DNA of 64,000 bases from Arthrobacter sp. zg-Y1171 (GTDB lineage: Bacteria > Actinomycetota > Actinomycetes > Actinomycetales > Micrococcaceae): positions 2,852,001 to 2,916,000 of the forward strand of contig NZ_CP104264.1 of assembly GCF_025244845.1 (NCBI RefSeq), written 5' to 3'. The position numbers and the translations under genes were made by a program. The notes beneath the pieces were generated by a model, which saw only the letters and a list, made by a program, of their open reading frames with translations, ran no database searches and had not been told where the DNA came from. Shown here in pieces: positions 4,955-29,486 of this stretch. Position 1 is the first letter of the stretch; the number at the start of each line of letters is the position of its first letter.

Positions 4955-5056
4955 CTACCCCAAAGTCAGCGCGGACCGGATGAGCGAGACCAGCATGCCG
5001 CGGACCTCGTCACCGCCCAGAATGATGGCCAGCAAACCCGCAAAAGCCACGGCCGC
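4955..5056 (-). pseudogene. DUF4244 pilin-like gene, severed 3' half
   Basis: Reading the minus strand from the GC at 5055-5056 gives AAVAFAGLLAIILGG, then DEVRGMLVSLIRSALTLG and TAG at 4955-4957. This is the second half of a Flp/DUF4244 hydrophobic helix and its C-terminus. The first half lies at 29478-29747. Joining the two across the GC gives an uninterrupted frame of 124 codons including the stop. No start codon or ribosome-binding site serves this fragment, so it is not expected to be translated alone. Confidence 0.88.
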
Positions 5057-5082
5057 CGCCGTGCACGGTCTTAGACATACTT
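5046..5082. other. attL of the integrated element
   Basis: Host arm GCCACG (5046-5051), core GC (5055-5056), then element sequence containing the palindrome half CGCCGTGCAC (5057-5066) and the outer arm ACATACTT (5075-5082). The mirror-image outer arm AAGTATGT begins attR at 29450. The integrase gene starts 18 bp beyond this site, the usual layout for a large serine integrase and its attachment site. Confidence 0.85.
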
Positions 5083-5100
5083 TCAGCTAAGCTGTGACGC

Positions 5101-6585
5101 ATGTCTCCTGCCACAACCGCTCGTCCCCGAGTTGCCATATACGCCCGTCAGTCGGAGGACGTTGACCAGGGCATCGTCCAGCAACTCGATGATTGCCGGG
5201 CGGAGGCCGCCCGGCGGAGCTGGCGCGTAGTGGCTGAGTTCCGGGACAACGATACCGGCGCCAGCAAGGCCCGCGGCCCGAAGACCGACTGGTACAAGAT
5301 GCTGGGTGAGTTCGATGCCGGTACGTTTGACCTATTGCTAGTCACGGAAACATCGCGGCTGACCCGAAGCCTCACTGATGTCCTCGACGTATGCCCGCCC
5401 CGCCGTGACGTCCGTGTTGTAGTGATCCGTGAGGGCATCGACACCGACGTCGATGACTTCATGCTTAAACAGCTGGTGCTCCTCGCCGAGCGCGAGGTCA
5501 AAATCAAGGCGGCGCGCGCAGCTCGTTACGCCGCAGAGCGCCGCAAGGAAGGCCATCCAGGCGCAGGGAAGACACCGCACGGATACCGATGGGTGTCCGC
5601 ACCCGACCGAGGCCCTGCAAACACTCGCTACGTCGTAGATGAAACCGAAGCCTCGGACGTCCGAAAGATTTTCACCGAGTTTCTCGTAGGTGCATCGCTC
5701 GGACAAATAGCTCGAGACCTCAACGGCGCTGGCAGTTCAACGCGCAAAGGCGCAAGGTGGCGCTCGGACAATGTGCGCCGGATCCTCATGAACCCGTTCT
5801 ATGCAGCCCTGTTGCCGCCGGCCCAGCCCTCCGGCAAGCATTCCCTGGCACAGATCGACCTGGGGGCGTGCACTCCTGGTGCTTGGGAAGCGATTGTGGA
5901 AGTCGAACAGTTGATCGCCGCACGCGGCCGCCTGGTCGGTGTCAAACCTAATCACAATGGCACCGCCCGTAGATGGTTGCTATCCGGTTTGGCCACTTGT
6001 TCCGTCTGCAGCGAGCCCGTTCGTTCAGCACGTGGAGAGACGCATCCAACAGCCCGAAGGGACGGCACCGGCACCGCTCCTAGCCAGCGTTACCACACCT
6101 ACCGCTGCGTAAACGGTCACTTCATGCGGAACGGGGACGTCATCGACGACTATGTCGCAGCATTGTGCGTTGCTCGCCTGTCGGAGGCCGATGCAGCGGC
6201 CCTACTCGTGCCTGAGACCAACGGGGCGGACATCTCCGCGCTGCATAACCGCCGCGAGGCGCTCCGAGCGAGCAGGAAAAACGTCTTCTCACTCATCGAC
6301 GACGACCCTGCCCGGCTCGCAGACGCCGAGGATCGGCTTAATGATCTGGAAGACCAGCTGAGGACACTCGACGAGGAAATCACGCGCGTCACCAGCCGGA
6401 GCCCCTTTGCCGACCTGGTCGGTGTCGAGGACGTCCGAGCTTGGTGGGAGTCCGCTACCCTCGCTCGTCGCCGGGCGGTCGTGGACTTCCTGATGAGCGT
6501 TTCCATTTGTCCAATCGGGAAGGGACGCCGCCTTGCGGGGTGGGAGCAAGTTAAAGAAACGGTCCAAGTCAAACCTAAGGTTTGA
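5101..6585 (+). CDS. Large serine recombinase (site-specific integrase)
   Basis: 494 residues. The N-terminal resolvase domain opens RPRVAIYARQSED with the catalytic Ser at residue 18, followed by ETSRLTRSLTDVLDV, the conserved arginine motif. A recombinase domain (GKTPHGYRW, then SLGQIARDLNGAG and RRILMNPFYA) precedes a zinc ribbon (CSVCSEPV ... YRCVNGHF) at about residues 300-345. A coiled-coil stretch follows at about 380-440. These enzymes recombine short attP and attB sites through a 2-bp core. It starts 18 bp inside attL. An 11-bp palindrome, CAGCTAAGCTG, occupies 5084-5094 just before the ATG, and no ribosome-binding site is seen, so the mRNA may be leaderless or tightly controlled. 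Confidence 0.95.
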   Translation: MSPATTARPRVAIYARQSEDVDQGIVQQLDDCRAEAARRSWRVVAEFRDNDTGASKARGPKTDWYKMLGEFDAGTFDLLLVTETSRLTRSLTDVLDVCPPRRDVRVVVIREGIDTDVDDFMLKQLVLLAEREVKIKAARAARYAAERRKEGHPGAGKTPHGYRWVSAPDRGPANTRYVVDETEASDVRKIFTEFLVGASLGQIARDLNGAGSSTRKGARWRSDNVRRILMNPFYAALLPPAQPSGKHSLAQIDLGACTPGAWEAIVEVEQLIAARGRLVGVKPNHNGTARRWLLSGLATCSVCSEPVRSARGETHPTARRDGTGTAPSQRYHTYRCVNGHFMRNGDVIDDYVAALCVARLSEADAAALLVPETNGADISALHNRREALRASRKNVFSLIDDDPARLADAEDRLNDLEDQLRTLDEEITRVTSRSPFADLVGVEDVRAWWESATLARRRAVVDFLMSVSICPIGKGRRLAGWEQVKETVQVKPKV

Positions 6586-6996
6586 ACTAACACGCGGCAG
6601 GATCCGTCCCGCTATTAAAGCTACGTGCTGAACAAAAAAACCTAACCGGACGAAGCGGGCCAGAGCACGACATTTCTGGCGACTTCGTGACTGGCGGGTT
6701 CGGCTGTCCCCAGCCTCCCAGCTGTTCCGCCCAACGCAGGGCAAACGACAGGAGCGTCCTCCTCACCAGTTTCCAAGTGGAAGGCCCACGGACTCGCGCG
6801 GGTGCTGCTAGGCAGAGCCCGTGCGTTCGGGTATGTGCGCATCGTGGTGTTTGGTCCAGTATCTGACGTTGAATGCTCTCGGCTCCTGAGATACTTCGCT
6901 GCGCTGTCCAGGGGAGCGTCAAGAGCAACAGCGCCCTTCGACGCTTCACCCTTTTGAGCTAGGTAGCTTCGTCGTCAAACAGTACGAAATCTCTGC
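6586..6996. other. 411-bp stretch without a convincing gene
   Basis: Frames on the minus strand here (about 120 codons at most) show no domain, signal peptide or ribosome-binding site and have compositionally implausible translations. It separates the convergent ends of the integrase gene and the 6997-7479 gene. I see no strong terminator hairpin. Confidence 0.4.
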
Positions 6997-7479
6997 CTAA
7001 TAGGTGGCGAATGCCGACTTGCTTTTGACCAGTATCTCCAGGTCCATTGTCTGTTGCAGTGGGCTTGGCTTCCATCCGAGTGCCGCCTGGACGAAGCCCG
7101 CCTTGCCTCTGTTGCGTCCGGCTTCCCACAGCTCGTCTTCGACTGGCAGGTGGAGGAAGTTCAGTCTCGTTCCCGACACGGAGTGTACCGGCCAGGTGTA
7201 GAAGCTGAGGAAGTTCTCAGGGTACGGGCCATCGTCAGGGCAGAACGGAGCCTTCTCGTAGATCGCAGGGCCGGAAATCGCCCAGGAGATGGGTAGCGTC
7301 CCCCGTCGTCCTATGTGCTGGATCCAGGCGCCCAAGGCCTGTTCGGCGCTCATCTCATCCGGGAGGTTATCGTCCGAGACCGTGTGGGCGCCAGGGAGGG
7401 ACCAACTGAGGAACAGCGGGGTCTCTTTCCAGACACCCCCGTTCACTGCTCTGCTCCGGAAATTCCACAGGTTCTGCAC
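6997..7479 (-). CDS. Hypothetical protein
   Basis: About 160 residues if started at the GTG at 7479; a second GTG at 7446 with GGAG about 8 bases upstream would give 149. The body (LPDEMSAEQALGAWIQHIG, then ISWAISGPAIYEKAPFC) reads like a soluble globular protein with many aromatic residues and no membrane segment. The frame stays open upstream to 7689, but that part crosses a 32-bp palindrome and looks non-coding. It is divergent from the gene at 7675. I do not recognise the family. Confidence 0.55.
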   Translation of the reverse strand: MQNLWNFRSRAVNGGVWKETPLFLSWSLPGAHTVSDDNLPDEMSAEQALGAWIQHIGRRGTLPISWAISGPAIYEKAPFCPDDGPYPENFLSFYTWPVHSVSGTRLNFLHLPVEDELWEAGRNRGKAGFVQAALGWKPSPLQQTMDLEILVKSKSAFATY

Positions 7480-7540
7480 CGGTCCGCCGCCCTTCTTTCG
7501 TCGAGATTTGATCCTAACCCGGACAAGGTACCGACTGACT

Positions 7541-7572
7541 TTCAGCCCCTGCCCCCGGGGACAGGGGCTGAA
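7541..7572. repeat. Near-perfect 32-bp palindrome in a divergent intergenic region
   Basis: Arms TTCAGCCCCTG (7541-7551) and CAGGGGCTGAA (7562-7572) flank CCCC/GGGG with a single C/A mismatch. It lies between the divergent genes at 7479 and 7675. No T-tract follows on either strand, so an intrinsic terminator is less likely than an operator or a structured leader. Confidence 0.6.
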
Positions 7573-7674
7573 GTTGAGCCTGCGCAGCGGGTGCGCAGCA
7601 GGGACTGTGACGTCGGAACTCAAAGGCTGAGATCCGCCGATAGGATGACCGGAAAACGAGTGACCAGGGGGATC

Positions 7675-8952
7675 ATGACTATCGAACACAAGAGAAAAAT
7701 GGCCTTAGAGTACGACATGCCGGCGGCACTCCAAAACTGCCTCCTGCAGTTGTCCGAGAACGCCCTGTTCGTTTCCCTGGCGGCCATGGACCGCGGGGAA
7801 ACCGATACCGCCATGGAACTCCTCGAGACGGGCCTGAAAGCACGGCTGGAGAGGCAGTCCACACTGGACGGTGGTCAGGCGACGAACTGGAGGTGGATCC
7901 ATCCCGTGCACGCCACTGCCGCAGCTACAGCAGGAAGGGACGACCTCATCCGCTTGGCCGCAGCCACAGAGTCCAAAGCACTGGAACAGATCAGTGCCGG
8001 GCTAGATGAGCCGACAAAACTGCCGGACCTTAGCGCTCAGGGAATTACGGTCTCAGGTCTGATGCCCTATGAGGACCAGATGCAGCGGCACAAGGCCAGC
8101 CTGCAGGGCAGGCTGGACCATATCTCCGAACAGCGGGACCGTTTGCTGGAGTCACTCAAGCTTATTGACGTGTATCAATCAGTGCGGGACATCGCGGCTG
8201 CCGAGCCGGGGATTAGGCAGACTGCACTTGCCGCGAGGCTGTCCGAACCCTTCGTCAAGCGCACGTCCACCTTGGTGAACCAGCTGGAAGCGGCTAAACA
8301 GGTCGTCACGGCCAAGGATGGATCCCGGGTGACCGTCTGGCCGGCGGGGCACCCTGATCTCCCCCCATCTCTGCGCGTCGTTAGCCGCCCATGGACTTTC
8401 ACTGATGTCGATGCCATGGATGGCCCGGATGCCCTTCCAGCCCTGGAGGAGCAGGCACTCAAGGTCGTTGGGTGGGCTCAGAACCTGGCGTCAGTGATCA
8501 GGTCAGGCATCGAGACTCCGGACGACCCGCAAAGCATCCGGATCCAAGACTTTATCGAGCATCCGATGGGGCCAGCGGAGTCGGAAGGCCAGCTGTGCAA
8601 CATGGATGATGAGTGGAGGGAACTTACCGTCTGGGGTCATGTTCCCCTGGACGTGCCGGCCGCCATCGTTGCAAGGTTCCGAGAGACGCAATTCTCCCGT
8701 GTCAAGGCCCGATCGATGAAAAGATGGCTCACCTCCACGCCCCGTCATACATATGTGGTGGCAGTCCCTGGAAAGGCACAGCGCTTAGGGGTGTCCCGGC
8801 CCATCCTCAAAGAAGTAGAAGTTCCATGTCCTGGAGCCATCCCCGTTACCGTGCTTGAGAACGCAGCCGACCCTAGCGCGGCTGTCGTAGGCACGACCAA
8901 ACGGATGCTCTGGCTGTGGGAAGCTGAAAACCGTGCGGCGTCAGAGGGTTGA
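7675..8952 (+). CDS. Unknown protein with a possible winged-helix segment
   Basis: 425 residues. The ATG at 7675 is chosen because AGGGGG lies 5-10 bases upstream; the longer open frame crosses the palindrome. The N-terminal ~120 residues are Leu/Ala-rich and helical. Residues about 170-225 (ALAARLSEPFVKRTSTLVNQL, followed by a short charged wing) resemble a winged helix-turn-helix. The C-terminal ~200 residues resemble nothing I can name. The tandem structured element at 9234-9571 begins 281 bp downstream on the same strand, which makes a gene-plus-RNA unit conceivable but unproven. Confidence 0.75.
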   Translation: MTIEHKRKMALEYDMPAALQNCLLQLSENALFVSLAAMDRGETDTAMELLETGLKARLERQSTLDGGQATNWRWIHPVHATAAATAGRDDLIRLAAATESKALEQISAGLDEPTKLPDLSAQGITVSGLMPYEDQMQRHKASLQGRLDHISEQRDRLLESLKLIDVYQSVRDIAAAEPGIRQTALAARLSEPFVKRTSTLVNQLEAAKQVVTAKDGSRVTVWPAGHPDLPPSLRVVSRPWTFTDVDAMDGPDALPALEEQALKVVGWAQNLASVIRSGIETPDDPQSIRIQDFIEHPMGPAESEGQLCNMDDEWRELTVWGHVPLDVPAAIVARFRETQFSRVKARSMKRWLTSTPRHTYVVAVPGKAQRLGVSRPILKEVEVPCPGAIPVTVLENAADPSAAVVGTTKRMLWLWEAENRAASEG

Positions 8953-9233
8953 CACGGGATCCCGGTCTCCAGTCCGAAGGCGCGGTTCCTGCCGAAGGAG
9001 AGAGGCGCGCGCCAGCGATGGTTCCAGGGGCACCCCGACGATGCGCAGCATTGGCGGGGCAAGAGAGCGCCAGCGAACGTAGTAGGGGCCCGGAGCGCAG
9101 CGACCGAAGGGATGTCGGCTGTGCCGACCACCGAAGCGTAGCGAGGTGCCATCCCCCCTTATGCCCTTTCCCTTTTTCCCTCGCATCTGGAGCTTTAGCG
9201 GAAGATCGAGGGGAGTTCTGCTGGTGTTTCAGA

Positions 9234-9571
9234 GGAAAGTAGCGCCTACCACCTGCTTCCTACCCGACCATTTATGGTTCCTACTCGTAGGAGGGAGGGT
9301 AGAGGTGGCGCTAGTTTCCGCGGGTTTCGGGCCTTTTGCTTCCTACCGGGTTTTTAGGTGCATGGCACCCGGTAGGAAGCAGACGCAGTGTGCCTCTCGC
9401 TTGGAAAGTAGCTTCCACCGCTGGCTTTCAACCCGACCATTTATGGTTTCCACTGGTGGAAGGTCGGGTTGGAGTGGTGCTACTTTCCGCGGGTTTTGGG
9501 CTGCTGGCTTTCCACCGGGTTTTGGGGTGCGTGGCACCCGGTGGAAAGCGGTGCTGCGAAGCAGCGTCACG
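9234..9571 (+). repeat. Tandem pair of 169-bp multi-hairpin units (candidate structured ncRNA or DNA element)
   Basis: Unit 1 is 9234-9402 and unit 2 is 9403-9571. Each has an outer stem (GGAAAGTAGC pairing with GCTACTTTCC; one mismatch in unit 1), an inner stem (TACCC/GGGTA in unit 1, AACCC/GGGTT in unit 2), a mini-palindrome ACCATTTATGGT, a hairpin TCCTAC/GTAGGA or TTCCAC/GTGGAA, and a 14-15 bp hairpin (9337-9351 with 9367-9381; 9507-9520 with 9536-9549). Between the copies, five base pairs change on both sides so that pairing is kept. The period of 169 is not a multiple of three, which argues against coding. I cannot assign it to a known RNA family; the strand is arbitrary. Confidence 0.75.
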
Positions 9572-10018
9572 GGGTCCGACGAAGGAGCGGCACCGTGTTC
9601 ATGCCCAAAAAGGGGACGAAGTCATCGTCTTCATTTCTCACACCGACAGGGCGCTGTGACGCAGGAGCAGCGATCCCGTACGAGGTGGCAGCGCGGAGAC
9701 GACTGAGGAACGAAGACGGTTCCGTGCTCGAAACGCAGCCGCTGCAGGGGCTGTCACAGCTCCTGTTTCAGCGCTCGTGGCCACAGCTTCACCGTGGCCG
9801 CAACGAACTGCTCAGCCGGCCGCGGCCGGCTGTTCCGAAGGCACTGCAGAACGTCGTTCCAGGATCGCCGGCGGACTCTGTGGATCCTTCCCGAATGGAG
9901 GTAGCCGGCGGCCTCAGCGGATCCGTTCCGGACCTCGAATCGCCACCCGCTCCATCCGTCCACACTCCTGGCAGCTTGCCTTCCGCCCTGGCTTGGCGCC
10001 CCCGGCCGCCGGGATGGT
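9572..10018. other. Stretch of about 450 bp without a supported gene
   Basis: Open frames on both strands here give low-complexity translations without ribosome-binding sites. The stretch lies between the tandem structured units and a minus-strand terminator at 10019-10042. Confidence 0.4.
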
Positions 10019-10042
10019 AAAAAATGCAGCCCTAAGGCTGCA
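10019..10042 (-). terminator. Intrinsic terminator, minus strand
   Basis: On the minus strand TGCAGCC-TTAG-GGCTGCA is followed directly by six T residues (the + strand shows a run of six A before the stem). It implies a leftward transcript from about 10.1-10.5 kb, where no convincing protein gene exists; that transcript may be non-coding. Confidence 0.65.
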
Positions 10043-10061
10043 ACGTTGTGGACAAAGCTGG

Positions 10062-10330
10062 CCCGATTCTGGTCAAAAACTGTCCCGTCAAGGACGACAA
10101 CGGGTGTTCTTGAGTGAAGTTTTGATTACTTGCGGGCTTCCAAGGGTATCGGGCCGCTTTTGGACCAGATCTGGGCATGATCCGGACGGATCGGACCCTA
10201 ATCTGGCCCAGCGCGATCACCAGGGCTTTCGTAGCCCGGCAATGGCCCACGTCCGGCCCACAAATGGACACAGTGCGGGGCGGCCTCTATCGATATCCCG
10301 GTTCTGGCCCCGAACCGGACCAGAACCGGG
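10062..10330. repeat. Five dispersed copies of CCAGAnnnGGG (iteron-like cluster)
   Basis: Copies at 10165-10175 and 10320-10330 read on the + strand; those at 10062-10072, 10196-10206 and 10297-10307 read on the minus strand. Most extend to a GGRCCAGAWnnGGG consensus. The last two form an inverted pair (CCCGGTTCTGG with CCAGAACCGGG). Such clusters are typical of replication-initiator, partition or transfer-origin sites, but no cognate protein can be named. Confidence 0.6.
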
Positions 10331-10969
10331 CTGGTTCCGGTCCAGTCATTTATTTGGATGTCCGTCAGAAAGCAAGAAAACGAGGGCTGAAGAACCATCG
10401 CTGGGATCCGGGATGTGGCCTCCGCCTAAGTCCCCGCTGACCTTCACCCATTAGCAACGAACACACCGGCCTCACCTCCTTCCGGGATCGATGGTGCGGT
10501 CGTCAAGGGTGTGCGGCCGGGACGGCTGACACCGCGGAACCGCGAGGCGAAATTGGTGGGGCAGCCATTGTGCAACGGCGTTCCCTCCGGCTTGGGGAAC
10601 TGGGTTCGGAGAGGATGGGGGTGGATGAGGTAGCGCTAATGCGAGGAGTGCACGGGGTGCGCGGACGACGCTCGTTTGCCCAGCATTGACAGGATGCTCA
10701 TCCCCCTGGGCTTCCCTTCGAAGCTCCCGGCCCCAGCAAACGACGGCCGGCGCACTTAGTCAATATAGCCAAATATGCATTTTATCCTCATTTATCAATA
10801 GATTTTTGAGGTGCGGGATATGCGTATTTTTCCCATTTCTGGCAATTCGCAAAACACATGCCGTTTGTTTATTATTTAGGTACCCCCGATGTCGGACGCC
10901 GATTACGGCGTCAGGATTACACTCCGGGACCTCCGCATTGAATGACTTACTGCTGATTCGAGGTGATGT
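10331..10969. other. Stretch of about 640 bp without a gene; promoter side of the 10970 gene
   Basis: Six-frame translations are short or implausible. Composition becomes AT-rich at 10755-10880 (for example TCAATATAGCC and ATTTATCAATAGATTTTTGAGG), unlike the surrounding DNA, as expected for an upstream promoter region. A GAGGTGAT ribosome-binding site closes the stretch. Confidence 0.4.
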
Positions 10970-11434
10970 ATGAAACGCCAGGTGAACATGAACCGGATGG
11001 TGCCCTCGTTCTGTGGTCCAAGAAACTTCTATTCCAATAGGGAATGGTGGACCCGCGCCATGTGGGCCTTTGAGGCGATGGCTTCCCCTAGCGACCGCAA
11101 GTTTGGATATGGTGCCGCCATGCTGACCGTGCTTGCTCAGAGCGGTGCCGCCAGCAACGAGGAGAAGGCCCTTCTTGACACAGTCTGGAAAACGACCGGC
11201 ACCCAGATGAGGGACTCGGCGATACGCCGACTCCTCATTGAACGCAGCACAGTTTCTGCGTCCGATGACAATTCTCGGTCGGAGCGTCCAGAGCATATTA
11301 GGGAAGGTTCCGGTTCTCTCTACCGAGAGGTCCTCGCTGCTCGCCTGAAAGCCGTCCTGGATCAGGAGCTCGGCTGTCAGACCTCCCCCCTTGTGTGTGA
11401 GCTTGCGGATCTGCAAGTCAAAAGGTTCACCTGA
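10970..11434 (+). CDS. Hypothetical protein
   Basis: 154 residues, with a strong GAGGTGAT ribosome-binding site a few bases before the ATG. The sequence is soluble, mixed alpha-helical (TRAMWAFEAMASPSDRKFGYG, then LDTVWKTTGTQMRDSAIRR) and has no recognisable catalytic motif. It lies 90 bp upstream of the NucS-like gene on the same strand and may be cotranscribed with it. Function unknown. Confidence 0.7.
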   Translation: MKRQVNMNRMVPSFCGPRNFYSNREWWTRAMWAFEAMASPSDRKFGYGAAMLTVLAQSGAASNEEKALLDTVWKTTGTQMRDSAIRRLLIERSTVSASDDNSRSERPEHIREGSGSLYREVLAARLKAVLDQELGCQTSPLVCELADLQVKRFT

Positions 11435-11524
11435 ATCGCGCCGGATACTGGCCTATCCGGGCAGATTTCTCCAGCTACACACATCAACAGGACAGGCACT
11501 ACACGAAGGATCGGACGATAGGCG

Positions 11525-12475
11525 ATGACCGAACTGACGAAACTGCGCGGATTCCGGCTTGAGAAGGAGCTGGAGGACTATCTGGAGGACCATCTTTCTC
11601 TTATCGTGCAGGACCTATTGATCATCGGACGACAAGTGAAGGTGGGCGGTGGGCTAATTGACCTGCTCGCGATCGACTCTGCCGGCGTAATACACATCGT
11701 CGAGCTGAAGCTGAACGAAGCATCCCCCTCCGTCATTGCTCAGGTTCTTGGCTACCGCCGCTCAATCAAGCGGATGAACAGAGACGAATTGATCCAGATC
11801 GTCGCTGACGGTGATCTGGAGATCGACTTGCCAGTGGCTTTCCAACAACGCTTCGGACGTCCGCTGCCAGAAACCCTGAATGATCTTCCGGCACTCATGA
11901 TCATCGCAGCGTCCATCCATCCAAGAGCCGCCGACAGCGTTCTGGAGCTCCTGGATGAGGGCTGGACGATCAGAACGTTCAGGTACTCCGTACACTCCGC
12001 TGGCGTGAGACTCATCCCGTGCTGCCGTACGGACAAAGAGGTGAAAGAAGGCAACCACGCAACGACGAGTCCTTCGGCACCCCCCGATCGTATGAATGCC
12101 ATACCGGAACGTCTACCATCCTGTCGGGTACCCATAGACGAGCACGTCCGACTGTTTTGGCAGACCCATGTTCAGGACTTCGCACCATTCGTGACCTTTA
12201 GCTTCATATACGAGCGCTACCGTGACTGGTTTCACGCGCAAGCGGTCGAAGGCGTGCAGCTCCGCCAAAGCGGACTATTTGCCCGTCAGCTGTCTGCAAT
12301 CACCGGCGAATCCGGCGAGTGGACACGCGTTTACGTCGCTCATCGCAGCGATATGGCGGCCTACAACACCTTCATGGTCCCGCCGGGGGCCTCGGAATAT
12401 CGCGCCAGCGGTCACACCGTAGCGGCGTACAAGTTGAACCCTGTCGACCCGGTTTCAAGTTCACGAAGAAACTAA
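11525..12475 (+). CDS. NucS/DUF91-like PD-(D/E)XK nuclease with a D5-type C-terminal domain
   Basis: 316 residues. The N-terminal ~170 residues resemble an endonuclease of the PD-(D/E)XK superfamily: GRQVKVGGGLIDLLAID, then VIHIVELKLNEA, providing the Asp and Glu-x-Lys residues. A polar linker (about 175-200) leads to a C-terminal region with FVTFSFIYERYRDWFHAQ and LRQSGLFARQLSAI. That pattern resembles the winged-helix tail of D5-type phage primases (ORF-end 'S-x-LY-xx-Y-xx-W' motif). The fusion suggests a nuclease recruited to replication structures. Both domain calls are from motif recognition; target unknown. Confidence 0.7.
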   Translation: MTELTKLRGFRLEKELEDYLEDHLSLIVQDLLIIGRQVKVGGGLIDLLAIDSAGVIHIVELKLNEASPSVIAQVLGYRRSIKRMNRDELIQIVADGDLEIDLPVAFQQRFGRPLPETLNDLPALMIIAASIHPRAADSVLELLDEGWTIRTFRYSVHSAGVRLIPCCRTDKEVKEGNHATTSPSAPPDRMNAIPERLPSCRVPIDEHVRLFWQTHVQDFAPFVTFSFIYERYRDWFHAQAVEGVQLRQSGLFARQLSAITGESGEWTRVYVAHRSDMAAYNTFMVPPGASEYRASGHTVAAYKLNPVDPVSSSRRN

Positions 12476-13326: not shown

Positions 13327-13498
13327 TGCCTCCCGGTTTATACGTAACGTGCCCTGCGCGTCGTCAGCATCATTACACCGCTTGGGAGCTGAGGCCAAGG
13401 GGGCCGCTTGCGAAGCCCCAAAGACGAGGCGCGCCTCCTTTACACAAACCTATCTCCTCGCAGCAACAATTTGCGTCGCCGAGAACCCAGAAGTCGAC

Positions 13499-13642: not shown

Positions 13643-13684
13643 GGATGTATAGCTATTTTCTTATACGTGGATAGACTCTGTTAC

Positions 13685-21381: not shown

Positions 21382-23237
21382 GCTGGGATCTCCTCGGTGT
21401 TGGTGTCGGTGATGTTGTCGGCGGTGTGCCACGAGCAGCGCCTGTCGCTGCACGTTATTAGCTCGCGGTGATCACGGGCCACCTCGGGCCAGCCGGGCTT
21501 TTCCCTGCGGTAGCAGTCAGCCCAGTCACGCCCTCGCGCGCCCTTCGCTGCGAGGACGGGTACGGGCGTCGCCCCCGGCGCAACCTGGTGGGAGAACTGC
21601 AGGGCATTAAGCACCGCATTTTCTGCCTCCTCAACCCGGTTTTCGGGGACTGAAAGCACAAGCTCGTCATGGATGATCGCCCGCAGGCACGGCAGCAGCC
21701 ACTCAGGGAGACGCAGTATTCCCTCGGTCATAAGGTCGCGGGCGGTACCTTGGCCCATCGCGGCTGGCCCTTGTGTATATTCCCGGCCGGGATGCACGCG
21801 CATCCGACGGCCGTATGCGTTCACAAGGATCTGCCCCCGGGCTTGATTCCGGATCGCTGACTTGAAGGTGGCCAGCCGGGGAAACTGAGCGTCCAGCGTG
21901 GCTAGTTGCCGCTGAGCCTCGTCGACTGGGATGCCGGCATAGGCCGCCAGCCCCGTTGCGCCCATCCCGTACGACGTCGCGTGTGTGATCGCTTTGGCAT
22001 CGCCACGCCGGGGGTGATGGCCCGCCCCGCGGCCCCAGCCATCCTCGCCGAAGACAGCCGCAGCCATCTCGTCGTGCAGGTCAGCGCCGGGTGCGACTGC
22101 AGCGATATAGCCTGGGTCCTGGGCATGCATCGCAATAGCCCGGGCATCGATTTGTGCCAGGTCGGCTGTGATGAGCACATGTCCTTCGTCAGGCAAAAGC
22201 AGCGACCGCTCCAGTAGGTTTCCGCGGTCTCGCTTGCCTTGGACCGTGAGTCCGGGCTTGGTGACAGAGAATCGACCGAACGCTTGTGAGGCCGTGACAC
22301 GCGGATGGACGCGTCCGTCGGGGCCGGTGTGCTGAAAGATCGTCTGAGCTGACGAACGTTCACCGTTCGAGGCACGCAGAACGCTGCACAGTTCGAGCAA
22401 GCCAGTGTTGTCGGGATGCTCCGCTTCAAGCGCTTCCAGCGTGTCTTTACCGGTAGCCAGGTTGCCCTTCGGAGTCCGAGGGGGCCTGACTCCGAGGTCC
22501 GTAAAGGCCTGGATAAGGGCTTCCTTTCCCGCAGACGTTGCCTGCGGCTTCGCGCCTTCTAGAGGCAGTCCGTAGACGTGATGGAGGCGCTCCTTGTGCA
22601 GGCTCACTCGCTCCTCCTGAGCCATGAGTACTGCCTGGACACGGTCGGCATCGACCCGCCAACCCTGCTTGCTGATGTGCCCCAGCCGCCACATCACTTC
22701 ATGCTCCCGCCAAATGTACTCATCAACGGCAAGGTACTGGGCGAGCTCGCGAACCAGTTCGACGTCCCGGACGAGGTACCTCACGTACTCAGGGTGACCG
22801 ACGGGGATCCTGTCGTAGCCACCGAACTGGCGGGCGAGCACCCTGAGCATCGATTCAGAGTCGTCGGGAACCTTGGCGGCGCCAAGTACGCGCCGGCACA
22901 GGGCAGCAAGGTTGTACCGCCGGGCATCGGCTTTGCCTGACAGCGGCGGATCGTTCTGCCGTGCGGCAAGAAGTGTGTCCATCACCCGGCGCTCCCGTAC
23001 AAGGCGTGCGAGATCGAGTCCGTGGTATCGCTCCAGCGCGGGCAAGCCGAAGGCGAGCAAGTCGTGCCCGACCACAAGGTCAGCCTGCAGAATCATCTCG
23101 ACTACCGATCGGATGTCGGTAGTGGTGACCACCTCCGATCCGCCGACACCAACACCCGCGAGGCGGACAAAGCCAGGTCCATAGTCCCAGATACGATCGG
23201 CATCCGCGGTTCCGAGGTTCAGGTAGAGGATACTCAT
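21378..23237 (-). CDS. Family-A DNA polymerase of the element
   Basis: 619 residues. The polymerase domain has motif A ITADLAQIDARAIA, motif B RGDAKAITHATSYGMGATGL and motif C IIHDELVLSVP. The N-terminal part has a DEDD exonuclease layout with motif II GHDLLAFGLPAL and motif III YLVRDVELV. However, the first motif reads YLNLGTAD rather than the DxE form, so proofreading may be lost. The gene overlaps the primase-helicase upstream by 4 bp and the small gene downstream by 4 bp. This size and arrangement are typical of phage or plasmid replicases rather than chromosomal Pol I. Confidence 0.92.
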   Translation of the reverse strand: MSILYLNLGTADADRIWDYGPGFVRLAGVGVGGSEVVTTTDIRSVVEMILQADLVVGHDLLAFGLPALERYHGLDLARLVRERRVMDTLLAARQNDPPLSGKADARRYNLAALCRRVLGAAKVPDDSESMLRVLARQFGGYDRIPVGHPEYVRYLVRDVELVRELAQYLAVDEYIWREHEVMWRLGHISKQGWRVDADRVQAVLMAQEERVSLHKERLHHVYGLPLEGAKPQATSAGKEALIQAFTDLGVRPPRTPKGNLATGKDTLEALEAEHPDNTGLLELCSVLRASNGERSSAQTIFQHTGPDGRVHPRVTASQAFGRFSVTKPGLTVQGKRDRGNLLERSLLLPDEGHVLITADLAQIDARAIAMHAQDPGYIAAVAPGADLHDEMAAAVFGEDGWGRGAGHHPRRGDAKAITHATSYGMGATGLAAYAGIPVDEAQRQLATLDAQFPRLATFKSAIRNQARGQILVNAYGRRMRVHPGREYTQGPAAMGQGTARDLMTEGILRLPEWLLPCLRAIIHDELVLSVPENRVEEAENAVLNALQFSHQVAPGATPVPVLAAKGARGRDWADCYRREKPGWPEVARDHRELITCSDRRCSWHTADNITDTNTEEIPA

Positions 23238-25843
23238 GAAGCATCACCGCCAAGCTCTGAGATGGTCCTGCCGGTCATGGGCGGCATCGCTCGGGCGACC
23301 TGCTGTTTGAAACCGCCACGTCCCGTGAGCTCGATGAGCTCTCCAGGAGCGGCACCCGCCGCCGGACGCGGTCCGGCGGCCCCTGAGGCGTTCCGGTGAG
23401 AGCCATTCAACGTCGCAACGCCCGCCTGCCGTTCAACAACATAGGCTTTTCCCCTGCCATGCAGTTTGCCGGTCTGGACGATACGAAGGCCGGCGTACCA
23501 TTTCGGGTGCTGTCCGTAGTACATCGAGAGCTTGCGTGCGTCCATCTCATCCCAGGATTTGCCATAGGGCGGCGGCGGGTCTGTCTGGGCCCTCGCCTGA
23601 GCCAGGACTTCAGGAGCTCCGAATCGAGTTCCGGCGGGGAAGAGCGATTCAACCCACTCCCAGTGTTCTGCGTTGTCGACGGCCTCGCTGTCCGCACTTT
23701 CACGAACCTCAAGGACAGTTGAGAGGAACCCACGGATGCCGGCAAGGTGAAGGATTCCGCCGACGACCCGTTGCCATTCCGTGAAAGATTTGAACCCGAA
23801 TGCACGCGGGGCCGCTGGGCACCCCCTGTCATACCAAGCCCGGACAAGAACCAGCACGGCGCGCAGCAGCTCCGAGCGGTGACCCGGCACCCAGGTTTCG
23901 AGGTCGTGACGAAAGTTGTCTCGCGTTTCCAGATCGTCCCGGTCGGAGGCCATTCTGCAGGTATAGATGCGCCGAGCCATGTCACCAGGAATCTCGACGT
24001 TGTTCCCCAAGGCGTACCAGCTGGCTGTCTGAGGCAGGCTGAGCATCTCCGACGATCCAAGCTTTCGCCCCTCGTAAACCTCAGACGTTAACGCTGCCCC
24101 GAGCGAGTTCGAGAGCAACCGGGAGCCAGCGTCATCCTGCACCTCGTCAAGACAGATAGTGTCGGCGCTGGCCCGAAGCTTGGCCGTGATTCGCTTGTCC
24201 ATCTCCTCGTCGGACTTCGGGGCGGTTTGGATCGGCGCAGGAGCTCCGAAGGCAATCCGATGTATCACATCCAGACAGCCGCCCTTGCCCACGCCACGGT
24301 GGATTCCGTCAAGCACGAGCATCGGCACTTTCGTGACGGAAGCGCGGATAACCGGAGTGATGAGACCTGCGATCGCGTGCGTCTGGTCCGCCTCAGAAGC
24401 AAACGCCCATCCGTCATAACCGTTGGCGCCGTCCATCGCGAAGAGATCGTCGCGAAGCAGTGAGACCGCTGCTGATATGTCAGCATCGGTCGGGTGGTCA
24501 GGCACTCCAATACCCTGAACATCGGGCGTGAGATCAAGGTACACACCGCTCTTGGCGTGATATCCGGAGTCAGTGAGAACTGTGCCCTCGGCGAGTACGA
24601 GGGGGGAGCGGGTAACGCCGGCGAGGTACGGGAGCACGTCGTAGTGATCGGCGACAACATCGATGAGATTATCCGAAAGCCCCGCCGGCACCTGCCCTTT
24701 CGCTCCTTCACTGTACGGATAGCTGACATCCAGCAGTTCGCGCCGGAGACCTCGCCGGTCAAGCGGGGTCACGTGCAGCGGCCCGTCACCTCCTTTGGCA
24801 TCCTTCGCACGCCGGACGCGTACGAGCTCCTGGTTGCGTTGGAAGACACGCACCCCACCGGAACGATCGACCAGAGCCTTGAGAAGCTCGAGTGAAGCCT
24901 GCCGCTGGTCTCCTCCGACGTTGACTGAGGTTCGTTCGTCAGGCGACGTCAAGGGGGAACCGGAACGAGCGGCTGCACGCTTTTCTTGCAGTGCTCTCCG
25001 CATTTTCTGCTGTTCCCGCTTATCCAGGTCTGCAGGTTTATTCTGTGCCCTTGTGATCAACGACACCAGCATGTCCCGCCGGGCTTCACCGTCTGCGAGC
25101 CGTGCGAGCAGGTCGTCCAGGCCATCCTTGCCCACACCGGGGATTCGGGCGAACTTCACGCTCGAGGCGGCGTACGCCTTGCAGGCTTCGCCAAGCGCGG
25201 CCGCACCGTCGAAGACGCGGATGTTGGTTTTCGCGTCAGTGTCCGGCACGATAATGACATCGCAGCCCTGGACAATGGCCAGATGCGGCGTCGGGGTCCC
25301 CTGGTCATCGTCGTCGCCGGCGACACGCCAGGACCAGATGCCTGTGATGCGGTAGATCGACCAGGTTTCCGGGGCCCAAGCGAGAGCTGCCAGCGCTTGC
25401 TTGACGCCCTCCACGATAAGAACCACTTCCGGGTTCTGCTTTGCGCGCAGAACAGGCAGTCGCGGTGGATTGTGTGCGCTGCCCGGCGAGACGTATTTGA
25501 GGACCTCACCGTCCCTGTCGGTCACGCTCCCTGGAGCCGGTTTTACCTGACCTGTCACTGAACCGTCGGGATCTGCCATGGGGTAGACCAGACATGGAAA
25601 TACAGCGTCCCCGTGGATATCGACAATCCATTGGGCCCAAGACGGGAGTTCACCACGTTCGTAGGCACTGTGGACTCCCTGGGCGACCGCAATTGAATCA
25701 GGGATGGCGCTTTCGTGAAGCTCCCGGGCGTGCTCAGGAGCCAATGCTGGATGGCACGCCGGATTACCGGGGAGTTTTGCTGCTGCTCCGTCGCCCGCAA
25801 AATCGGATCTAGTGAGTTCCGGGACATCGTCTATAGTGTTCAT
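23234..25843 (-). CDS. Primase-helicase-like replication protein (TOPRIM plus D5-type ATPase)
   Basis: 869 residues. Residues about 120-215 form a TOPRIM-like region with VVLIVEGVKQALAAL (catalytic Glu) and DVIIVPDTDAK (Asp-x-Asp). The second half is a helicase-type ATPase: HRGVGKGGCLD as Walker A, DTICLDEVQDD as Walker B, and WYALGNNVEIPGDMARRIY as sensor and arginine finger. The residue after the Walker A Lys is Gly rather than Ser/Thr, which is unusual. It is the first gene of a three-gene operon with the polymerase, so it probably opens and primes the element's origin. Confidence 0.85.
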   Translation of the reverse strand: MNTIDDVPELTRSDFAGDGAAAKLPGNPACHPALAPEHARELHESAIPDSIAVAQGVHSAYERGELPSWAQWIVDIHGDAVFPCLVYPMADPDGSVTGQVKPAPGSVTDRDGEVLKYVSPGSAHNPPRLPVLRAKQNPEVVLIVEGVKQALAALAWAPETWSIYRITGIWSWRVAGDDDDQGTPTPHLAIVQGCDVIIVPDTDAKTNIRVFDGAAALGEACKAYAASSVKFARIPGVGKDGLDDLLARLADGEARRDMLVSLITRAQNKPADLDKREQQKMRRALQEKRAAARSGSPLTSPDERTSVNVGGDQRQASLELLKALVDRSGGVRVFQRNQELVRVRRAKDAKGGDGPLHVTPLDRRGLRRELLDVSYPYSEGAKGQVPAGLSDNLIDVVADHYDVLPYLAGVTRSPLVLAEGTVLTDSGYHAKSGVYLDLTPDVQGIGVPDHPTDADISAAVSLLRDDLFAMDGANGYDGWAFASEADQTHAIAGLITPVIRASVTKVPMLVLDGIHRGVGKGGCLDVIHRIAFGAPAPIQTAPKSDEEMDKRITAKLRASADTICLDEVQDDAGSRLLSNSLGAALTSEVYEGRKLGSSEMLSLPQTASWYALGNNVEIPGDMARRIYTCRMASDRDDLETRDNFRHDLETWVPGHRSELLRAVLVLVRAWYDRGCPAAPRAFGFKSFTEWQRVVGGILHLAGIRGFLSTVLEVRESADSEAVDNAEHWEWVESLFPAGTRFGAPEVLAQARAQTDPPPPYGKSWDEMDARKLSMYYGQHPKWYAGLRIVQTGKLHGRGKAYVVERQAGVATLNGSHRNASGAAGPRPAAGAAPGELIELTGRGGFKQQVARAMPPMTGRTISELGGDAS

Positions 25844-25917
25844 GAGGACCTTGTTTCCTCCGGGGCCTGGGGCAGGTGCGAACTGCCGTCGGGCCGAATT
25901 GTCTAAGAATTGTCTGC

Positions 25918-25943
25918 AAGAGCTCCGCTTCGGCGGGGCTCTT
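25918..25943. terminator. GC-rich hairpin between the HTH gene and the replication operon
   Basis: AAGAGCTCCGC-TTCG-GCGGGGCTCTT forms an 11-bp stem with a UUCG-type loop and one wobble pair. T-rich sequence (GTTTTGTTT) follows on the + strand only, whereas both flanking genes run on the minus strand. It could partially attenuate the leftward transcript between the HTH_17 gene and the primase gene. Confidence 0.4.
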
Positions 25944-25951
25944 GTTTTGTT

Positions 25952-26311
25952 TCAGGCGGAGGCAAGGAGCCTGCTTAGCTCGGCCTTGCGCTGTTCACTC
26001 AGACGTGGCCAGGACGTGACCATATGAGCCGCAAGGGCGGCGAGATCGGTAAGGTCGTCCGTGGAAGACCCCTGGATTCGAGGGCTTGAGTCGGCGACGT
26101 CCACTGGCGTTATCAGCCGCTCGAGATCAGATTCCCTGACCATGAACTGCTTTCCGATCCGGACAGCGGGAAGGCGGCCGGCATGGACGTACTTGCGGAG
26201 TGTGTGCGGTTTCGGCCAGCCGCGCTCATGAGCGGCGCGAAGGGCGAGAAGCGGGTCGTCTCCGCTGGACAGACGCAGAGTCTGCGGGAGGCATACGGTC
26301 GAAGGGGACAT
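25952..26311 (-). CDS. HTH_17-type DNA-binding protein (excisionase-like candidate)
   Basis: 119 residues. The N-terminal half holds a MerR/excisionase-type helix-turn-helix: TLRKYVHAGRLPAVRIGKQF followed by MVRESDLERLI. The C-terminal part is helical and acidic, then basic. It lies directly upstream of the replication operon and is divergent from the XRE repressor across the TTATCG operator region. In comparable elements such a protein acts as a recombination directionality factor or as an activator of replication; which applies here is inference. Confidence 0.8.
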   Translation of the reverse strand: MSPSTVCLPQTLRLSSGDDPLLALRAAHERGWPKPHTLRKYVHAGRLPAVRIGKQFMVRESDLERLITPVDVADSSPRIQGSSTDDLTDLAALAAHMVTSWPRLSEQRKAELSRLLASA

Positions 26312-26398
26312 TAGGACCTCTCAATGGGGTCCCATGCGTCCGTCGTTCCGGGAATCGGAGGTCACCGCCACCCAAAGAAGATTGGTGTGTGGACTGTA

Positions 26399-26468
26399 GC
26401 GTTATCGCGACCTGTCGTGCCTCAACGATAACGATAGAATGTGATTATCGCAATGTATAGCGATAATC
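26399..26468. promoter_or_regulatory. Operator region with repeated TTATCG half-sites between divergent regulators
   Basis: A dyad GATTATCGC (26443-26451) and GCGATAATC (26460-26468) has perfect 9-bp arms with an 8-bp spacer. A second, looser pair has GCGTTATCGC starting at 26399 and CGATAACG at 26426-26433. It sits between the minus-strand HTH_17 gene and the XRE gene, the typical place for a lysis/lysogeny-style or replication on/off switch. The XRE protein is the natural candidate binder. Confidence 0.65.
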
Positions 26469-26505
26469 ATGTACTAGCCACAAGTCAGAAGAGAGGATGT
26501 AGCAC

Positions 26506-26889
26506 ATGACGGCCGCAACGGAGACATTTGCCCGGAGGCTCTCCGAGGAGCGGCAGCGGGCGGGCCTGTCACAGGCAGCGCTTGCTGCGCGCATCACTGA
26601 CTTGATCGGACGCAGCATGGATCCCAGCGCTGTTGCCCGGGCAGAGAAGCACGAACGGGCCATCAGGCTTGATGAGGCCGTCGCGATCGCCGACGTGCTC
26701 CAGATGCCGCTCACTTCCCTACTCCGGGACAAGGACGCCATCGATGAAGAAATAGACGAACTTCGGCGAGACCTCAGCCTGCATCAATGGCAGCTGAGCC
26801 AAGCCGAGGAGGAAGCTCAGCAGGCGCAGGATTCGATGTCCGCGACGCGTCGGCGCATTGCAGAACTTGAAGACGCCCGCGGCGAGTAA
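26506..26889 (+). CDS. XRE-family transcriptional regulator
   Basis: 127 residues. Residues about 5-70 form an HTH_3 domain: RLSEERQRAGLSQAALAARI, then MDPSAVARAEKHERAIRLDE. Residues about 75-127 form a charged coiled coil (EEIDELRRDLSLHQWQLSQA), probably for oligomerisation. It is divergent from the HTH_17/replication operon across the TTATCG dyads, so it is the likely repressor that keeps the element quiescent. No peptidase domain is fused. Confidence 0.85.
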   Translation: MTAATETFARRLSEERQRAGLSQAALAARITDLIGRSMDPSAVARAEKHERAIRLDEAVAIADVLQMPLTSLLRDKDAIDEEIDELRRDLSLHQWQLSQAEEEAQQAQDSMSATRRRIAELEDARGE

Positions 26890-26943
26890 CCACTCCTGCA
26901 ACACCCGGCCGTCCGGGTACGCAGGCTCGTTTGCCCGTCCGGT

Positions 26944-27230
26944 GGAGAGCCATGGACGGCGACGAGCGGGTGCTCTCCGTTTCGCTCTCCCTCCCATCTG
27001 CTGTCAGGGAGCCCAGAATGGGGCGCCCGGAGAGCGGGAGAGCAGGCCCACACGGCATCCGGCAGCAACAAGTGCGTGTGTGCGTGTCATCGCGGGCACG
27101 GTGTTAGACGGCCACGCACGCATTTGATGGTAGAGCCTTCCTTTTCTTGCTCTCCTTGCTCTCCCATGGGTCAACTGCCCCGAATTTCCGGGATCAAAGG
27201 TGGAGAGTAAGAAACGATTTGCTGCTCTCC
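26944..27230. repeat. Cluster of eight GCTCTCC/GGAGAGC heptamers (iteron-like)
   Basis: Exact copies: GGAGAGC at 26944, 27029 and 27037; GCTCTCC at 26972, 26984, 27149, 27158 and 27224; plus GGAGAGT at 27202. They occur mostly as close pairs (8-12 bp apart) with alternating orientation, in about 290 bp that otherwise carries no gene. Far fewer than one copy is expected by chance. The location between the repressor and the cargo, near the replication operon, makes an origin plausible. Confidence 0.6.
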
Positions 27231-27304
27231 GCTTGGTCTCCTGCTCCCCGGCTGACGGTGAGGCGCCGTCCTTTCAGGATTGCTCAACAGCTAGGGTCGA
27301 GGTC

Positions 27305-28117
27305 ATGACGCTGACGCTCGAACCAATCCTGCTAAGCGCCGGCATCGACCCGGCCGATACCCAAGTGATACGTCATGCCTTCGTGCGCGAGCACGGTGAC
27401 ACCGGCCTCAGAGGTATCCACGCCGATTCCACCGACGACGAGATCCTCGCCTACACGAGCCAGCAGTCAGTGAATCCGCGGACCTTCCCCGTTATACCGC
27501 CACATGTCTGGGTGGTATTCGTTCGTGAGGGCGGTGATCGGGCCCGGCTGTGGGCCGTGGTACAGAACCGGGGCCAGATCTCGAACGATGGCGTTCGGCG
27601 AACGTTTGACCTGGTTTTTACCGAACATCTGGCCGACCTTAGGAACCGCCTTGTCATCGGCTGGAGGTCTCCGCGGACCTGGCGGCTTAACGGTCCCACG
27701 GCTGCCGGCTACCCGGTCATGGAAATTGCCGACGCCCAGCCGGTGCCATTCCCCGGCTTTGACCGCCTCGTCCTGGACCACGCCCAACTCCAGGCGGTAA
27801 TGCGCGAGCATCGGTACGCGTCCTGGCGCACGGCCCTGTCGTCAGTCGTAGGCGTCTACCTCATTACTGACACACGCGACGGCCGGCACTACGTGGGCAA
27901 AGCCGACGGGGCGGAGAGCATCCGTCAGCGCTGGAGCGCATACGCGACAAATGGTCACGGTGGCAATGTGGAGCTTCGCAGCTGCGACCCAACGAGCTTC
28001 CGCTACTCACTGATGAGGGTTTTTGACCCCACCACCCCGGCCCCGGTGATCGACGCGGCTGAAAGCCACTTCAAGCACGCAATGGATACGAGGAAGCACG
28101 GGCTCAACGGGAACTGA
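27305..28117 (+). CDS. GIY-YIG nuclease family protein
   Basis: 270 residues from ATG 27305 (GAGG just upstream; the open frame extends to 27200 through the heptamer cluster, which looks non-coding). The C-terminal ~90 residues contain the GIY-YIG signature as VVGVYLITDTRDGRHYVGKA and the catalytic Arg in RQRWSAYATNGHGGN. The N-terminal ~170 residues (LLSAGIDPADTQVIRHAFVRE, then VWVVFVREGGDRARLWAVVQ) form a conserved companion domain seen in actinobacterial homologues. A restriction or anti-phage role is plausible but not shown. Confidence 0.82.
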   Translation: MTLTLEPILLSAGIDPADTQVIRHAFVREHGDTGLRGIHADSTDDEILAYTSQQSVNPRTFPVIPPHVWVVFVREGGDRARLWAVVQNRGQISNDGVRRTFDLVFTEHLADLRNRLVIGWRSPRTWRLNGPTAAGYPVMEIADAQPVPFPGFDRLVLDHAQLQAVMREHRYASWRTALSSVVGVYLITDTRDGRHYVGKADGAESIRQRWSAYATNGHGGNVELRSCDPTSFRYSLMRVFDPTTPAPVIDAAESHFKHAMDTRKHGLNGN

Positions 28118-28301
28118 TCTCCGTGACCAACGCGTTTGCTGCATTGGAACGGTCTATCTCATTGCCGGCGATCCTGGCAGGCGATGTCGAGTCTCAGGAG
28201 ACGCGTGAATCACTGGAATGTGCGAGCGAATCCACCAGCTTTCGATGGCGCCCTAAAAGCGGACTTGACCGCCAGCATGAGTGGAAATGTCTCTGCCGAG
28301 C

Positions 28302-29183
28302 CTAACGCTCCTTATTCGCCCAACGCTCCATCGCCATCGCGGCAACAAAGAAGTCCAAGAATTGGTCTGGGCTCAGGTAGCGTGGCTCGAACGTCATTGC
28401 CAGGTCCATGTAGATGGCTCCGAGTTCCCTGACCACTCGGAGACTGCCGTGATCCCAGTAGGCGGCAATGAGAGGCCCAACGGCACTTTCAAGCGCTTCA
28501 CCAATGACTCGGGGATTCTGGATAAGGGAATCAAACGAATACTGAGCGTTGTCGATCAGTGGGAGTGGCGGCAATCCTGGATCTGGTTGGTCTTGACCAT
28601 ATGATCCTTTTGTCTCCGAGCTAAATACCAAGCACGATGTCTGCAGTTTTGCCTGGTGGCCGAAAAGTGTGAGTTTGAAGTCGTACCCGCGAAGCCGCCG
28701 GACGGGCGTGCTCGACCCGGGAAGTATTGGGGGGAGGACTTCTCTTCGGTCGTACGAGATGCACATTTCATAGCGTGAACCCACAATCAGAGCGGGTCCG
28801 TCCTGACCGTTGGGCTGGATGATTGGCAGCTCTGTGGGGCTTTTCCCGACACCAACCCGCTGAAGTGTGATGCCTTCATAGTCGAGGCTCCGGATGAGGC
28901 CGAAGACAGGTAACGCAACTTCATACTGGGAATAAAAAGAGGAAATTCCAAGAGTTAGCGGGGGCTGGTGACCTGCCCGGCGGTTATCGTCAACGAGCCG
29001 ATTATATGCAGTGTCGATGTCATGCAGGTACGTCCCGACCTTCTGATGGGAGTCAAAAAATATCATCGGGTAATCGGCCGGTACGTATCGGGAGGACATG
29101 GGGTCCCAACGAACTTCAGAACCCATGCTTGCCGCCCAAGGGAGAGGGCGCGTGATCATAGTTGGAACGAGATTTCCCGACAC
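28302..29183 (-). CDS. Hypothetical protein
   Basis: 293 residues from a GTG. Soluble, with mixed alpha/beta character (PLTLGISSFYSQYEVALPVF, then VRRLRGYDFKLTLFGHQAK) and a helical C-terminus (FFVAAMAMERWANKER). No transmembrane segment or known motif. Base composition is lower in GC than the host flanks. It converges with the GIY-YIG gene, leaving 184 bp with no further gene, and is the last gene before the right end of the element. Confidence 0.7.
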   Translation of the reverse strand: MSGNLVPTMITRPLPWAASMGSEVRWDPMSSRYVPADYPMIFFDSHQKVGTYLHDIDTAYNRLVDDNRRAGHQPPLTLGISSFYSQYEVALPVFGLIRSLDYEGITLQRVGVGKSPTELPIIQPNGQDGPALIVGSRYEMCISYDRREVLPPILPGSSTPVRRLRGYDFKLTLFGHQAKLQTSCLVFSSETKGSYGQDQPDPGLPPLPLIDNAQYSFDSLIQNPRVIGEALESAVGPLIAAYWDHGSLRVVRELGAIYMDLAMTFEPRYLSPDQFLDFFVAAMAMERWANKER

Positions 29184-29449
29184 TTCGCAACTCTCCGTTT
29201 TCCTGGGGAATGCTTTCTTTGTTTACTTCCTGAAGCTTTAGAGCAACAGAATGCGATCATAGATAGCTCCCAAGTGTCATTCAATTGTGACGCGCGGAGG
29301 CGTGTATAAGTCCACTTAAAAAATGCCATCGCCGTTGATTTGCTGCAGGTTCATCGATTAGCAAACCTCGGGTTACGGACTTGGATCACGCTCTATCCGT
29401 TGTTACGCGGTTACGGGATGCTAGGAAAACTGTCCGTCAACCCGAGATC

Positions 29450-29486
29450 AAGTATGTTTTGTTGGGTGCACGGCGGCGAGCGTGGC
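29450..29486. other. attR of the integrated element
   Basis: Element outer arm AAGTATGT (29450-29457), palindrome half GTGCACGGCG (29466-29475), core GC (29476-29477), then host sequence with the arm CGTGGC (29481-29486). With attL it reconstructs a symmetric attP in the element and a symmetric attB in the DUF4244 gene. Confidence 0.85.

Follow-up and report, generated by a model that had tools for sequence, protein, structure and literature searches.

The window analysed here, 64,000 nucleotides of contig NZ_CP104264.1 of Arthrobacter sp. zg-Y1171 (positions 2,852,001 to 2,916,000; coordinates below are those of the window), contains an island of 24,423 bp (24.4 kb, from the core GC at 5055-5056 to the core GC at 29476-29477, both copies counted) that splits a pilin-like gene of the DUF4244 family and carries next to one of its ends the gene of a large serine integrase, P0001. 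The boundaries, the GC common to both junctions, the restoration of the gene when the flanks are joined and the occurrence of both orientations among close relatives can be read from the sequences themselves. We consider it highly probable that P0001 belongs to large serine integrases with a naturally palindromic GC core, and hence without orientation control. The features on which this rests are:

5055..29477, no strand assigned: integrated element (in-register GC shared by both junctions; flank matches to the same-species genome G020 overlapping by 2 bp)
5036..5082, plus strand: attL, the integrase-side junction (host half-site, core GC 5055-5056, P' arm 5057-5082 ending in ACATACTT)
29450..29497, plus strand: attR, the distal junction (P arm 29450-29475 starting with AAGTATGT, core GC 29476-29477, host half-site)
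5101..6585, plus strand: large serine integrase P0001, 494 aa (PF00239 Resolvase, 2.6e-18; PF07508 Recombinase, 5.6e-12)
4955..5056, minus strand: DUF4244 C-terminal part, severed by the element (partial match to PF14029, 34.5 bits; in-frame join)
29478..29747, minus strand: DUF4244 N-terminal half, pilin-like, with the processing motif G/XXXXEY present as G/MATAEY (partial match to PF14029; in-frame join)

The first-pass annotation, made from the sequence alone, had placed the boundaries at this GC and had joined the flanks there into an in-frame DUF4244 gene of 124 codons with stop; the boundaries are borne out by the in-register shared GC and by an empty genome of the same species, and the join does bring the gene back in frame (372 nt, 124 codons including the stop). 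Across 29 genomes of the genus DUF4244 was uninterrupted in 26 and split in 3, and GC occupied the site in all 26 intact homologues. In the same-species genome, G020, whose DUF4244 is uninterrupted, the left flank aligned up to 5056 at 97.5%, with 17 gap positions in 4058, and the right flank, gap-free and at 98.0%, from 29476 on, the two matches overlapping by exactly the 2 bp of the core; the 12-kb G020 stretch searched gave no match to the element sequence. The empty site of this genome (L031) reads GCCACG-GCCGCCAG-CGTGGC. In the 62 bp around the join it departs from the predicted attB at one base beside the core, C for G at 29478, which is a synonymous change in the third position of a Leu codon; at this position 20 of the 26 homologues have C, 3 have G and 3 have A. 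The expectation that an uninterrupted relative would show GCCACG-N8-CGTGGC was thus right for both arms and wrong, by this synonymous change, for one of the eight central bases.

Joining the element ends gives an attP of 54 bp in which all the parts described earlier are present, namely a perfect 22-bp inner palindrome (10+2+10) around the GC and the outer arms AAGTATGT (29450-29457) and ACATACTT (5075-5082). Symmetry around the GC reaches 19 of 27 paired positions, and within 14 family elements 10 centres out of 281,587 score at least as high. The 13-bp inner arm has six copies in the genome, four of them outside the element ends. The proposed attB arms GCCACG and CGTGGC, centred on the GC, are likewise present, with 10 of 18 positions symmetric; the same centre scores 7 to 10 of 18 (mean 8.8) in the 26 uninterrupted homologues of the genus, compared with a background mean of 4.9 (sd 1.95) for the remaining centres of these genes, and 4 of the 26 have the GCCACG-N8-CGTGGC arms exactly. 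The attB symmetry is therefore largely a feature of the pilin coding sequence rather than of the element, and since intact homologues share it, it is no independent evidence for the element. Of the first-pass statement that two independent symmetry centres and the reading frame agree, the attP centre and the frame stand and the independence of the attB centre does not.

The integrase gene begins 44 bp from the core. P0001 has the catalytic domain of serine recombinases at its N-terminus (PF00239) and a Recombinase domain (PF07508) in its long C-terminal part; no Pfam zinc-ribbon match was found at 1e-3, and Cys/His pairs are visible by eye. As in the large serine integrases of the phiC31, Bxb1, phiBT1 and A118 type, the two domains go together with a symmetric attP of about 50 bp, a shorter attB, a 2-bp core shared by the two sites, and an integrase gene beside attP; unlike these systems, the island family has a natural palindrome, GC, as its core, and the orientation in the target is not conserved. 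A non-palindromic, orientation-fixing core is usual in large serine integrases, not strictly defining for them, and is lacking here. The first-pass statement that orientation is normally fixed by a non-palindromic 2-bp core agrees with PMC3783163, PMC4111918, PMC3836970, PMC13044945 and PMC6192176; the core of A118 is GG (PMC3556126), that of phiBT1 GT (PMC3836970) and that of Bxb1 a non-palindromic GT (PMC6192176). The CcrA/CcrB recombinases of staphylococcal cassette chromosome (SCC) elements are alike in a weak sequence relation and in the cargo-island lifestyle, and unlike in their target and in family membership, P0001 scoring 51.5 bits against the NCBIfam CcrB model, far under its cut-off of 900. 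No relatives of P0001 were found in plasmids (E<=1e-60) or in phage records (E<=1e-30); one relative at 28% in viral contigs was not used.

Relatives of P0001 were sought in genome_contigs (6 loci) and in whole genomes, with one genome per species in the comparison set. They occurred in 10 of 396 genomes at the level of the order and in 1 of 394 at the level of the class, and in single families in 5/47, 5/345, 2/60, 4/213, 6/388 and 1/24 genomes; these sets overlap, and three of them include the genome of the window. This gave 26 distinct loci, the window included, of which 24 had a readable integrase-side junction; 23 of these junctions lie in DUF4244 and one, in G1478, lies elsewhere, and was read without an orientation being assigned, since it is outside DUF4244. 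Two partial matches, G900 and G901, were included, both being in DUF4244 with GC and beside its N-terminal half. L042 and G593/L062, without a readable junction, were left out of the counts; both are remnants, the former with the DUF4244 C-terminal part fused directly to integrase residue 268 and the junction deleted (L042 9919-10001), the latter with an intact DUF4244 and, at a distance of about 0.6 kb, an integrase fragment (L062 about 871).

At these junctions the host half-site is usually followed by GC, by an arm of some 26 bp that closes with a motif like GCATACTT, and then by the integrase gene. The attL arrangement of the window thus recurs, the distance between the core and the end of the outer motif being 26 bp as a rule; G105 differs in that its integrase is found about 4.2 kb inward of the junction. 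All 23 DUF4244 insertions fall at the same Ala codon (the GC of GCN), and they do so in both orientations. Both ends were found for 18 elements, in which the first core base is equal across the two sides in 18/18 and the second in 17/18 (GC on both sides in 17), the next best column agreeing in 13 of the same 18 pairs. Arm length, reading frame and gene length are checks independent of the registration by GC, and the join restored a conserved stretch (EYAIATLAAVAFA or an equivalent) with unchanged length in 18/18, in G412 with the integrase-side core. It is this family comparison, with the arm lengths, that places the core at GC. That the core is instead the neighbouring CACGGC (5048-5053 / 29469-29474), identical on both sides of the window element, is very improbable: a join within it has two mismatches to the empty site as opposed to one at the GC, the best joint symmetry is at the GC, and its columns agree in 7 to 13 of the 18 family pairs.

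Several observations weigh against a GC core and a single target. If raw mismatches to G020 alone are counted, the join one base to the right (after 5057), with none, does better than the GC join, with one; this placement was rejected, because 5057 and 29478 differ and the base to the right of the GC is outside any shared core. The pairs were registered by GC, and the 17/18 is hence partly by construction. Arm lengths deviate in G345 (left arm 27) and G1592 (25 on both sides), the right arm of G315 is 28 if the core is GC, and the right outer motif of G104 is off by one base. The attP symmetry is weak in G345, G315, G1380 and G1592 (5, 10, 11 and 11 of 27, respectively), the remaining 14 of the 18 pairs scoring 14 to 20 of 27. 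G412 has GC on the integrase side and GG on the distal side, its ends lying on separate contigs. Finally, G1478, whose integrase is 93% identical to that of G215, is inserted at a site other than DUF4244 and retains its own DUF4244 intact.

The G412 element belongs to Ruaniaceae (L154 about 1246, G412:C64), and its GC/GG pair may represent an exchange with mismatched cores, a mutation or two different elements. The G315 element (L087, G315:C3:160189) has an in-frame TAG in its integrase and a distal arm 2 bp over the usual length, and is possibly decaying. The G1478 site (L105 about 2030, G1478:C1:837076) lies at most about 200 bp from a tRNA-Pro gene and shows the same arm with the GC present; its far end was not found in the 60 kb searched.

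The integrase stands beside the C-terminal part of DUF4244 in 13 of the 23 insertions, the window included, and beside the N-terminal half in the other 10, a ratio compatible with 1:1 (p = 0.68, two-sided binomial). On a maximum-likelihood tree of 22 integrases, 21 of them with known orientation (G427, with its integrase split over two contigs, and G900, with an in-frame stop, were counted for orientation outside the tree), orientation is scattered, with 6 changes of which at least 5 are forced by well-supported (starred) branches. Shuffled labels on this tree gave means of 6.9-7.1 changes, 144-165 of 500 shuffles being as low as the observed value; a first tree of 21 integrases, without G901, gave 6 changes (at least 5 forced) for a shuffled mean of 6.5 (240-244 of 500 shuffles no higher than observed) and rejected a single clade for the second orientation (8 rows; approximately unbiased test, AU p 5.6e-60). 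Two pairs of sisters face opposite ways, G000 (the genome of the window) and G015, in one genus and with 86% identical integrases, and L037 and L038, in two genera and with 90% identical integrases; G183 and G366 (79% identical) share one orientation.

An orientation fixed in each integrase lineage, with opposite polarities evolved through changes in the att arms, might be suggested by the tree groupings G183/G366, G315/G1380 and G1316/G1472, each of one orientation, and by the presence of both orientations in several genera. We judge it decidedly unlikely, as at least 5 changes fall on well-supported branches, clustering is no stronger than in many shuffled labelings, and sisters at 86% and 90% identity differ in orientation.

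Under the reading that we prefer, the island would integrate at the first two bases of the Ala codon in DUF4244 by means of its large serine integrase, the crossover dinucleotide of P0001 and its relatives being this GC, at which cleavage would take place. GC is its own reverse complement, and attP and attB could thus be joined after synapsis in either alignment; the orientation would be uncontrolled because the core is self-complementary and both alignments can join. In characterized serine integrase systems synapsis of attP and attB is as efficient in antiparallel as in parallel alignment, and strands can be rejoined only where the central dinucleotides agree (PMC3783163; PMC4111918). With phiBT1 integrase and Gp3, attL and attR sites carrying engineered GC cores gave unnatural products as efficiently as natural ones, and the product matching inversion between attL and attR (BOP and B'OP') was obtained in very low yield (PMC3836970). 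From a natural GC core one would therefore expect integration in random orientation, with inversion a rare event later on, and the comparative data fit; among the relatives, the consequence of the palindromic core, which the first-pass annotation had not drawn, appears to be visible as insertions in the same gene, at the same codon, in both orientations. These phiBT1 sites resemble the island sites in that a palindromic dinucleotide abolishes the alignment check, and differ in being laboratory mutants, whereas in the island family the palindrome is the natural core (PMC3836970).

On this account both orientations would be set when the island integrates and would not result from inversion at the core afterwards. 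The alternative is one-way integration throughout, followed by in-place inversion of the element through integrase action between the two junctions, an event that a palindromic core would permit and that has a parallel in the recombination of misaligned junctions with engineered GC cores (PMC3836970). We hold this to be unlikely, given the very low yield of the in-place inversion products BOP and B'OP' in that same phiBT1 system. Ordinary inversions were also considered and rejected: with breakpoints within the element, integrase and arm would be parted, and if the flanking DNA were broken instead, the gene halves would travel along. Any inversion would have to break at the core itself, because only core breakpoints swap the adjoining gene half and keep the terminal arms.

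The choice of site probably accounts for the palindromic core. In an Ala codon the first two bases are immune to synonymous change, so that the core of the target would always match that of the element; the attP-attB match would be protected because synonymous change cannot alter this GC, and loss of orientation control would be the price. The palindrome, we infer, is a side effect tolerated by an island with direction-independent genes. Engineered palindromic-core att sites reportedly go back to Ghosh in 2003 for Bxb1 and to Smith in 2004 for phiC31.

The interrupted gene belongs to a host Tad locus, which includes, besides the DUF4244 halves listed above:

31269..32519, minus strand: TadA-family ATPase of the host Tad locus (TIGR03819, 5.1e-137; PF00437)
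29898..31297, minus strand: two T2SSF proteins, TadB and TadC by position, upstream of DUF4244 (PF00482 in both open reading frames)
4442..4915, minus strand: TadE-family minor pilin, downstream of DUF4244 (NF041390, 3.7e-17; PF07811)

DUF4244 thus lies between two T2SSF genes and TadE, which is the flp position of a Tad locus, and the Ala codon whose first two bases form the core is located in the stretch that follows G/XXXXEY. The gene has the marks of a Flp-type pilin, namely G/XXXXEY before a hydrophobic stretch and the order tadA-tadB-tadC-(flp)-tadE; Flp_Fap (PF04964) had no match anywhere in G000, and the target matches PF14029 instead. The Flp loci of Micrococcus luteus have the same gene order, and Flp and the tad genes are needed there for transformation and DNA uptake (PMC4322843). 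The insertion would be expected to disable the pilus, and we hypothesise that insertions here block DNA uptake.

The same DUF4244 is split in another species, G003 (L043 2452-4494 and about 10196), by a distant serine integrase, 27% identical over 262 residues, whose reading frame continues across the junction into host DNA; its junctions share, by eye, ACCTTG directly upstream of GC, the automatic search having returned another, probably chance, 8-mer. Mobile elements also interrupt the competence genes comK, comYC and comFA, with divergent integrases targeting one gene (Croucher 2016, PMC4774983). The DUF4244 insertions would be analogous in lying within the coding sequence of a pilus or DNA-uptake gene and in the use of one gene by divergent integrases, and they differ in their target, an actinobacterial Flp-type pilin-like gene that the available text of PMC4774983 does not mention.

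The rest of the island consists of cargo:

6587..29183, no strand assigned: cargo (NucS_C/PDC-S11-like protein, AAA ATPase, N6 methylase of MAD2-like type, family A DNA polymerase, UzuA homologue, unmatched open reading frames)
25952..26311, minus strand: small helix-turn-helix (HTH_17) protein, excisionase-like (PF12728, 8.8e-8; TIGR01764 just under the cut-off)

Cargo open reading frames were scanned with Pfam (20), PADLOC (10) and PHROGs (10). In this part of the cargo no phage structural, packaging or lysis genes were found (20 by Pfam, 10 by PHROGs), nor relaxase, coupling protein or type IV secretion genes (20 by Pfam), and by its gene content the element is most aptly described as an integrative island with defence-like cargo. 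The integrase is the sole open reading frame cluster present in all 14 elements compared, frames overlapping the integrase aside. The HTH_17 protein is a possible recombination directionality factor; excisionase-like helix-turn-helix relatives occur in 6 of the 14 elements. A 0.94-kb segment containing this gene (25948-26885) is inverted with respect to the sister element L121 (G015), although in each of the two it lies 2.6-3.9 kb away from the distal end. Near the distal junction (27200-28117) the PADLOC UzuA models gave a strong match (7e-91). In 17412-25843 the MAD2-like N6 methylase is followed by the family A DNA polymerase, which overlaps by 4 bp an 869-aa open reading frame without a Pfam match, an arrangement that may represent a multi-gene defence module. 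Open reading frames of about 190-208 aa clustering with the integrase in G015, G104, G183, G215, G1316 and G1472 (among the 16 listed of 29 cluster members) are possibly small serine recombinases.

In the parts available of the open-licence PMC literature examined (PMC3783163, PMC3836970, PMC3556126, PMC4111918, PMC10083194, PMC13044945, PMC6192176, PMC13199778 and PMC11754103) a natural palindromic core with integration in both directions is not named; it may be in print elsewhere. A wider proposal, which we put forward tentatively as somewhat short of an even case, is that an actinobacterial integrase family gave up orientation control, its core locked to the invariant GC of an Ala codon and its natural integration direction random, and that separate lineages converge on the pilin-like gene because loss of the Tad/Flp pilus blocks the DNA uptake by which such elements are removed. 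The family looks like a natural counterpart of laboratory work in which the polarity of integration is set by the central dinucleotide alone, with 18 attP/attB pairs read at both ends available for testing that rule. It would also provide a set of integrases that, in several families belonging to one bacterial order, have a single conserved chromosomal target in common, and the pilus and competence genes interrupted by mobile elements may gain a further member, a pilin-like gene of the Tad locus.

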